Source: Campylobacterota bacterium
GTDB taxonomy: Bacteria > Campylobacterota > Campylobacteria > Campylobacterales > Sulfurimonadaceae
Assembly (NCBI GenBank): GCA_030837195.1
Contig: JAUPKZ010000005.1
Coordinates: 1 to 32,548, forward strand
Direction: 5' to 3'
Length of the DNA stretch: 32,548 nucleotides
A model generated the notes under the pieces. That model was not told where the DNA came from. It ran no database searches and saw only the letters and a list, made by a program, of their open reading frames with translations. Each line of letters starts with the position of its first letter. Positions within the stretch are counted from its first letter, which is position 1. Shown piece after piece: positions 1,049-3,386 of the stretch. Made by a program: the position numbers and the translations under genes.

Positions 1049-1492
1049 ATGAAAAAAATTTTAGTAAGTTTAGCGGCAATAGTAGCACTTAGTTCGTCTT
1101 TAGCGGCAAATGTAAATAACCAAACAGGTTGTGGTCTTGGCTCTCTTATCATCAAAGATGATTCAACGGCTGTAATGCTTGCACTTCAAGCTACAACTAA
1201 CGGTACTTTCGGAAACCAAACTTTCGGTATAACTTCCGGAACTCTTAATTGTAAAAAAACTCAGTTTGTTATGAATAAACAAACTGAAGAGTTTGTTGCT
1301 TCAAATATGGATCAACTTGCAAAAGAGATAGCAAGAGGAGAAGGTGAAGCGTTAGATACTTTAGCAGAACTTCTTGAAGTTTCAGACAAAGCTGCATTTT
1401 TTGTTTCATTACAAGAAAACTACAACAAAATCTACACAAGCCAAGATGCAAAAATGGCTGATGTACTAGATAACATCTCTACAACTCTCTAA
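1049..1492 (+). CDS. DUF3015 family periplasmic protein
   Basis: Signal peptide MKKILVSLAAIVALSSSLAA, then NNQTGCGLGSLIIKDDSTAVMLALQATTNGTFGNQTFGITSGTLNCKK, typical of the DUF3015 family. Confidence 0.8.
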   Translation: MKKILVSLAAIVALSSSLAANVNNQTGCGLGSLIIKDDSTAVMLALQATTNGTFGNQTFGITSGTLNCKKTQFVMNKQTEEFVASNMDQLAKEIARGEGEALDTLAELLEVSDKAAFFVSLQENYNKIYTSQDAKMADVLDNISTTL

Positions 1493-1501
1493 ATTAATAC
1501 T

Positions 1502-1531
1502 CAATCAAACGGATTTTTTTTCGTTTGATTG
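1502..1531. promoter_or_regulatory. Perfect 10-bp inverted repeat (caatcaaacg / cgtttgattg) with a T-rich 10-nt loop
   Basis: Direct reading: CAATCAAACG-gatttttttt-CGTTTGATTG, 9 nt after the DUF3015 stop and about 20 nt before the DUF4105 coding frame. Confidence 0.8.
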
Positions 1532-1553
1532 GCTCTTACAATAGGAAATTAGC

Positions 1554-3386
1554 ATTTTAGTAAAAATTTTTTTATCTCTAGCATTTTTTTTAACTTCGCT
1601 CTGCGGCTCTTCACAAGCATATTTTTATAAACAAAAAGCACAAGAAAAAGTCCTCTCCGACTCAAGATACTGGAAACTACTGCTGCATATGCAAAATAAA
1701 GAAAGCGAGATTGACGATGAGAGATTTTTTTTGGCGCCAAAGGGTAAGATAGATGCGCTAAGCGAGCTTAATGCAACTATTGATGCACTATTAAATGAGA
1801 CAAGATTTGACGATAATTCAACTGCTTGCAAATTCCCTGCCAGAAAAGCTTGGCTTGCTCAAGAATTAGATATAAAAGAGCTCCCAACGGTTGAATGCAA
1901 AGAGTATGATGCAATAGTTCAAAGATTAAACCCAAAATCAGTTACCCTTGTCTTTCCTGCGGCTCATATAAACTCTCCTGCTTCTATGTTTGGACATACT
2001 TTTTTACGCATAAACTCTGCATACAATTCAAAGCTTCTCTCTTATGCGGTCAATTATGCCGCAGATGCCAATCCCGATACCGAGAATGCCGTTATTTTTG
2101 CCATTAAAGGACTTTTTGGCGGTTACAGCGGAAAATACTCTATGTTACCGTACTACGATAAGCTTAAAGAGTATAGAGACAGCGAACAAAGGGATATTTG
2201 GGAGTATGATTTAGATCTGAATGAAAATGAGATTAAAAGGATGCTACAGCACATATGGGAGCTTAACGATACGCTTTCATACTACTATTTTTTTACGGAA
2301 AACTGCTCTTATAATATGCTCTGGTTTTTAGAAGTTGCAAGACCGACTTTGCATTTAAGAGACTATTTTAATTATCAAGTTATCCCTTTTGAGAGCGTTC
2401 ATGCCGCAAATGAAGAGGGTATCATAAAAAATAGATTTTACAGGCCCTCAAAAAGAACTATTTTATTGGCATATGAAAAGAAAATAGATGAAAAATATAT
2501 AGATATTCCTGCAAAATTGATACACTCAGAGGCTGAGATTGAATCTATAGTTAACGATAAAGATATTGATATACAGCAAAAAAGATATATTTTAGAGGCA
2601 TCTATAGAACTTCTTGAGTACAATCTAAGTAAAGGAAAAATACCAAAAGAACGCTATCTGACTCTTTTTCATGAGCTATCAAAAGCTAGAGCTTCTCTAA
2701 AAAAAGGAGAGTCTCTATATATAACAACACCAAATAACCCAATAGATGGCCATAGAGCAGTAAAAACATCATTTGGTACCGGTATCAAAGACGGTGATGC
2801 TGCAACATATCTAGGAATTCGCCCTGCATACCATGACTTGAGCGATAGCAATTATGGCTATATGAGAGGAACCCAGATAGAATTTTTAGATTTTGAACTA
2901 CTTCACTATAAAAATCAAACTAAAATTCAAAAAGCAACACTTATCTCAATTGCTTCCATAGCACAGCAAAGCAGCTTTTTTGATATGCTCTCTTGGAGAA
3001 CTAAGCTTGGGTGGGATAGAAATATGCTAAGAGATGAAGCTCTCTTTAGCGGAACGGTAGGAGCAGGTTTTAGCTGGGGAAATGAGCTTGGTTATGCATA
3101 TATTATGGCTGATCCGCTTTTTTATATAGATAAAGGAGCAAAAACAGCTATTGGCGGAAGCGTAGGATTTGTTATAGATAAATACGACATAATGAGTACA
3201 AAGTTTGAATATACAAACAGGCTATATGACAGTGGCGATAACCAAAATATTTATAATCTATCTCAAAACTTCAGAACATCACAAAACACGCAAATAAGGT
3301 TTGAATATGATTATAGAAATAGATTTTTAAAAGAGCATAAATACAACGAAGATCTTTTTAGAGTAAGTTTAAACTACTACTTTTAG
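1554..3386 (+). CDS. DUF4105 domain protein with predicted signal peptide and C-terminal outer-membrane beta-barrel-like region; likely non-ATG start
   Basis: ORF 1689..3386 extends in frame upstream to TAG at 1542 and encodes ILVKIFLSLAFFLTSLCGSSQAYFYKQKAQEKVLSDSRYWKLLLHMQNK (signal peptide then mature N-terminus). Core AAHINSPASMFGHTFLRI...YYYFFTENCSYNMLWFLEVARP is DUF4105-like; ends in aromatic NYYF. Confidence 0.75.
   Translation: MLVKIFLSLAFFLTSLCGSSQAYFYKQKAQEKVLSDSRYWKLLLHMQNKESEIDDERFFLAPKGKIDALSELNATIDALLNETRFDDNSTACKFPARKAWLAQELDIKELPTVECKEYDAIVQRLNPKSVTLVFPAAHINSPASMFGHTFLRINSAYNSKLLSYAVNYAADANPDTENAVIFAIKGLFGGYSGKYSMLPYYDKLKEYRDSEQRDIWEYDLDLNENEIKRMLQHIWELNDTLSYYYFFTENCSYNMLWFLEVARPTLHLRDYFNYQVIPFESVHAANEEGIIKNRFYRPSKRTILLAYEKKIDEKYIDIPAKLIHSEAEIESIVNDKDIDIQQKRYILEASIELLEYNLSKGKIPKERYLTLFHELSKARASLKKGESLYITTPNNPIDGHRAVKTSFGTGIKDGDAATYLGIRPAYHDLSDSNYGYMRGTQIEFLDFELLHYKNQTKIQKATLISIASIAQQSSFFDMLSWRTKLGWDRNMLRDEALFSGTVGAGFSWGNELGYAYIMADPLFYIDKGAKTAIGGSVGFVIDKYDIMSTKFEYTNRLYDSGDNQNIYNLSQNFRTSQNTQIRFEYDYRNRFLKEHKYNEDLFRVSLNYYF

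Follow-up and report, generated by a model that had tools for sequence, protein, structure and literature searches.

The DUF3015-DUF4105 Locus

The window (the whole stretch of DNA analysed, 32,548 nucleotides of contig JAUPKZ010000005.1 from a Campylobacterota bacterium of the family Sulfurimonadaceae) carries two neighbouring genes on the forward strand, encoding a DUF3015 protein and a DUF4105/Lnb_N protein, with a stem-loop between them (Table 1). The reading frame of the second gene is open between TAG 1542-1544 and TAG 3384-3386, and contains no in-frame ATG, GTG or TTG across 1545-1688. An ORF finder that accepts these three codons therefore places the start at 1689 and returns a protein of 565 aa. 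Both properties of the frame had been reported in an earlier note on this DNA, which proposed initiation at an ATT codon, either 1548 or 1554, and both were found again in the sequence. Taken alone, a run of 48 codons without a canonical start would be unremarkable, and it is conservation that carries the argument.

Table 1. Features of the DUF3015-DUF4105 locus (positions in the window)
Feature	Position	Strand	Evidence or remark
DUF3015 gene, secreted product, ATG start	1049..1492	+	Pfam PF11220, E=6e-40
Stem-loop between DUF3015 and DUF4105	1501..1532	+	13-bp stem, T6 loop
Putative Shine-Dalgarno sequence, AGGA	1543..1546	+	7 nt 5' of start codon; overlaps in-frame TAG 1542-1544
Proposed AUU start codon	1554..1556	+	ATT/ATC/ATA at the SD-defined codon in 66/69 orthologs
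Predicted signal peptide MLVKIFLSLAFFLTSLCGSSQA, residue 1 read as fMet	1554..1619	+	Sequence, coding pattern, hydrophobic leader in orthologs
Full DUF4105/Lnb_N gene from the proposed start	1554..3386	+	610 aa; Pfam, AlphaFold2, Foldseek
First in-frame ATG, probably an internal Met of the N-terminal domain and not a start	1689..1691	+	Inside DUF7843

The neighbouring DUF3015 gene begins with a canonical codon. In 68 of 69 loci from the genus, a homolog is found 5' of the DUF4105 gene in the same orientation, usually 42-79 nt from the DUF4105 start codon, and the pair also occurs in Salinivibrio, Pseudoalteromonas and Acinetobacter; a functional link between the two genes is likely. In the gammaproteobacterial pairs (L352, L353, L355) both genes are annotated as unknowns. 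The stem-loop between the genes is conserved in folding across the genus (median folding z = -4.3, with z < -2 in 58/68 orthologs), whereas its stem sequences have diverged. No classical terminator with a T tail was called at this stem-loop, which could possibly, as a guess, be an attenuator or a terminator-like element. In Pseudoalteromonas (L353), too, a hairpin-like sequence separates the two genes.

Position of the Translation Start

The bases of the start region are ataggaaattagcATTTTAGTAAAAATT, in which AGGA is followed after 7 nt by the ATT at 1554. The 3' end of 16S rRNA reads GGATCACCTCCTTTCTAGAG in two relatives and is compatible with AGGA or AAGG as the Shine-Dalgarno (SD) sequence. 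AGG stands at a fixed distance from the start codon in 68 of 69 orthologs from the genus, in support of AGGA, called SD-like in the earlier note, as the SD. Of the two ATT codons named there, SD spacing and conservation favor 1554. A start at 1548 was rejected, as this codon lies 1 nt from AGGA, too near the SD, and is not conserved: the aligned column holds TTT, CTT, ACT, ATC and others. On this comparative evidence, ATT 1554-1556 is very probably the translation start of the DUF4105/Lnb_N gene.

The gene was matched in 83 of 135 Sulfurimonas genomes, and 69 distinct sequences from this genus were used to count start codons. The start was assigned by a rule blind to codon identity, as the in-frame codon beginning 6-8 nt after AGG within a zone 18-50 codons 5' of the conserved YW..LLH motif. 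The codon so defined is ATT in 41 sequences, ATC in 22 and ATA in three (66/69 together). The remaining three comprise one GCT, followed by GTG, one CAT in an out-of-frame sequence, and one sequence with no AGG. Isoleucine codons occupy the columns beside the start in 0-32% of sequences, except for one signal-peptide column (72%). An in-frame stop, usually a TAG overlapping the SD, lies exactly three codons upstream of the start in 40/68 orthologs and thus narrows the choice of other starts, and no ATG occurs in any frame within the 45 nt upstream in 60/68. A few orthologs have canonical codons nearby: GTG in L032, an upstream ATG in L021, an ATG one codon upstream in L060 and L072, and a TTG one codon downstream in L028 and L062. 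The non-canonical start proposed in the earlier note is thereby supported, not as a local oddity of AUU but as an ATT/ATC/ATA state that extends across the genus. The third base of the codon moves among T, C and A, with about 20 changes on the tree. Avoidance of G at this base was considered as a stand-alone statistic and rejected as too weak, since with G3 = 0.106 at four-fold sites the probability of no ATG in 20 changes is about 0.1.

Outside Sulfurimonas, ATC, ATT or ATA occurs at the same place in members of other genera (L038, L040, L041, L045, L156, L170, L172, L175, L179, L184, L185, and L190). Sulfuricurvum-like relatives start with TTG (L042-L049 except L045, and L195-L201), so a very weak start is not an absolute need; ATG is used in L050 and L194, and GTG in a few other relatives. 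A tree of 105 proteins requires at least 25 changes of start state, of which only five lead from the ATH to the NTG class or back. Annotations of three gammaproteobacterial relatives give the gene an ATG start, and there too it follows a DUF3015 gene. Confident start assignments leave out distant families such as L086-L091. L088-L090 belong to another family of the order; their DUF4105 frame adjoins the DUF3015 end or overlaps it, shows no clear start, and could be translationally coupled to DUF3015.

Signal Peptide and Encoded Protein

Translation from 1554 would give (M)LVKIFLSLAFFLTSLCGSSQA-YFYKQ, which on inspection is a signal peptide. Over 19 independent close ortholog pairs, differences from the start to the YW motif number 156/80/218 at codon positions 1/2/3, and 110/73/336 in the coding control that follows; by this pattern, the stretch upstream of ATG 1689 evolves as coding sequence. 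The signal peptide placed upstream of the first ATG by the earlier note therefore gains comparative support, both from this pattern and from a hydrophobic leader in orthologs. DUF7843 covers residues 37-106 of the extended frame in Pfam, and ATG 1689 is residue 49 of that frame, so a start at 1689 would lose the signal peptide and cut into this domain.

DUF7843 is followed by Lnb_N, a permuted NlpC/P60 domain (PF13387, 184 bits against a Pfam cut-off of 22), and by a C-terminal DUF7840 domain. GH at 147-148 and NCSY at 250-253 are invariant. The AlphaFold2 model, built from the window sequence and those of related loci, has a mean pLDDT of 81.6, low around 174-211, and shows a run of long C-terminal strands (404-609) ending in the residues YF. 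Foldseek matched it to the outer-membrane barrels FapF, NanC, KdgM and others, with E-values of about 1e-5 to 1e-4 and modest TM-scores. With an antiparallel barrel in the model, a terminal aromatic residue and a signal peptide, the DUF7840 region is predicted to be an outer-membrane β-barrel. Outer-membrane barrels need a signal peptide for export.

DUF4105/Lnb_N proteins are permuted NlpC/P60 enzymes, and one of them, Lnb (DUF4105), is reported to be the enzyme that N-acylates lipoproteins in Bacteroides (PMC12994826). The window protein has Lnb_N and the conserved GH and NCSY motifs in common with Bacteroides Lnb, but fuses Lnb_N to DUF7843 and a predicted C-terminal outer-membrane barrel. 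No relative of the window protein was found in a sequence search of solved structures, and none of the NCBIfam models matches it. Lnt-like matches are present in 134/135 genomes of the genus; with such a gene nearly everywhere, the window protein is presumably no substitute for Lnt.

Rarity of Such Starts in These Genomes

Are starts of this kind simply common in these bacteria? From 1.6 Mb of a complete genome and 0.8 Mb of a second one, 545 ortholog ORF pairs were obtained, in which only three genuine genes have homology that clearly reaches upstream of every canonical codon: the DUF4105 gene, a MATE transporter and truD. Most ORF pairs passing the loose filter were discarded as UTR similarity, rRNA or shadow ORFs. 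The MATE-family transporter (G134:C1:1260164-1261522 (-) and G008:C1:1430955-1432313 (-)) lacks a canonical start at its conserved N-terminus. In both genomes compared its start region reads AGAGG-TATCACA-ATT, with AGAGG as SD, and the first ATG lies about 39 codons inside the homologous region. The truD gene (G134:C1:1239680-1240798 (-), G008:C1:1411771-1412877 (-), L322-L327) has lost the ATG of other Sulfurimonas in the genome that carries the window and in the nearest relatives of that genome, where the likely start is the ATT of AAAGGAGCTAAA-ATT or a later ATA. Of 30 genomes checked, the six closest alone lack this ATG, and truD was accordingly rejected as a second genus-wide case. The infC gene was likewise rejected as an AUH gene here, since it starts with TTG in 30/30 loci of the genus (L092-L121), in the near-invariant context GAGGTAAATTTTTG. 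Given this rarity, the restriction of the truD change to one clade and the TTG of infC, the start of the DUF4105 gene appears gene-specific and not a sign of generally loose initiation.

Alternative Explanations

The start could instead be ATG 1689 or a nearby CTG, yielding a cytoplasmic protein with no signal peptide behind an accidental open frame. ATG 1689 is the first canonical codon, and an ATG aligns with it in 50/68 orthologs, but other codons stand there in 18/68, so it is not a general start. This comparison, suggested in the earlier note together with a search for orthologs devoid of a signal peptide, had a mixed outcome: the ATG is frequent, the hydrophobic leader is found throughout the orthologs, and the AUU start is not refuted. 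The position of 1689 within DUF7843, the coding substitution pattern and leader upstream of it, and the export that a C-terminal barrel requires all argue against the downstream start, which is very improbable. Still less credible is a sequencing or assembly error, raised in the earlier note as a frameshift or miscalled base in the A/T tract that would hide an upstream ATG. T tracts do lie within about 1567-1594, but the same arrangement recurs in over 60 genomes that were assembled separately, some of them in a single contig (G134, G008, G133, and G014), and these independent genomes exclude an error. Alternatively, ribosomes might load at a start further upstream in a different frame, or through coupling to the termination of DUF3015, and then shift into this frame, the AUH codon being merely a conserved isoleucine. 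The close and nearly constant presence of DUF3015 upstream, and the frame that abuts its stop in the distant family L088-L090, would suit such entry. Against it stand the fixed SD and its spacing to the AUH codon, the hairpin between the genes, the stop that closes the upstream frame three codons before the start in many orthologs, and the lack of any upstream ATG in most; we consider this route improbable, if slightly less so than a start at 1689.

A more serious question concerns not the AUU start at 1554 but its meaning. The weak codon may be real and have no regulatory role, simply tolerated for a product needed in traces. Drift of the third base among T, C and A, the TTG of Sulfuricurvum and the example of truD, where such a start arose in one clade only, are what tolerance would produce. 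Against tolerance, the AUH codon has been kept across the genus and several other genera even though one base change would give ATG, and such starts are rare genome-wide. Mere tolerance has a substantial, though lesser, chance of being correct. Since nearly all relatives in the genus use AUU, AUC or AUA and not AUG, the weak start has probably been kept on purpose, and by analogy with other weak starts, low dosage is somewhat favored as the selected function of the AUH codon.

Proposed Role of the Weak Start

In the account we prefer, AGGA would select the near-cognate AUU 7 nt downstream, which would be read as fMet. The product would be a secreted protein of 610 aa in which a signal peptide is followed by DUF7843, a periplasmic enzyme domain of the Lnb-like type and, at the C-terminus, an outer-membrane barrel. 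Low copy of this membrane enzyme may result from the weak codon, to which the hairpin behind DUF3015 perhaps contributes. IF3 should discriminate against AUU 1554 as it does against other AUH starts, and the output of the gene could then follow IF3 or the growth state. As a whole, this account of a start at AUU 1554, a secreted enzyme and a low dosage set by the codon is probably correct. The AUU/AUA starts of S. aureus cvfC1, ccpN, and citZ give about 10% of the expression from AUG in poor medium, and a ccpN reporter gives up to 30% in rich medium (PMC13009471). Discrimination by IF3 against non-canonical starts has been shown for the GTC of sigR (PMC5472188). Because initiation from AUU and AUA reaches a small fraction of that from AUG and IF3 discriminates against them, the gene would be kept at low output, and low dosage is plausible for an enzyme of the outer membrane. 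That the AUH start acts as a genus-wide IF3 or growth-state switch for the Lnb-like enzyme, to which the hairpin would add a further brake, is a speculative extension and rather unlikely. Such a switch would concern bacteria whose own infC has no AUH start.

Comparison with Known Near-Cognate Starts

To our knowledge, good documentation exists for few genes starting with AUU, AUC or AUA, and such starts escape gene finders. Here, most of a genus and related genera would have kept an AUH start on the gene for a secreted enzyme. Annotation from the first ATG drops the signal peptide, which implies systematic misannotation of the family in Sulfurimonas. The gene would also be a clean natural case in which to test whether selection uses near-cognate starts to control the dosage of outer-membrane proteins.

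A known example is infC, which starts with AUU in E. coli and AUA in S. aureus and underlies IF3 autoregulation. The DUF4105 start would fall in the same AUH class discriminated by IF3, but infC encodes IF3 and regulates itself, whereas the window gene encodes a DUF4105/Lnb_N protein in a genus whose infC begins with TTG. S. aureus ccpN (AUA) and cvfC1 (AUU) likewise have conserved near-cognate starts that lower initiation, found by start-site mapping and conservation with support from Ribo-seq (PMC13009471). Their SD motifs are extended, and their products are a transcription repressor and a small protein, respectively, whereas the window gene has a short AGGA, a start assigned by sequence comparison and, as predicted, an outer-membrane enzyme as product. 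In E. coli pcnB, translation is limited by an AUU start, as cited in a later paper (Binns and Masters 2002, in PMC5601948); on that citation it too is a protein-coding gene with a limiting AUU, but an unrelated one, for a poly(A) polymerase of a gammaproteobacterium. The GTC start of Streptomyces sigR, demonstrated to be repressed by IF3, is similarly conserved in its genus, misannotated by gene finders and protein-limiting (PMC5472188). It differs in its codon and in encoding a sigma factor, and the effect of IF3 is demonstrated there and inferred at the window gene. As judged from its conservation, the DUF4105 gene joins infC, pcnB, ccpN, cvfC1, and sigR as an unusually well-conserved putative case.
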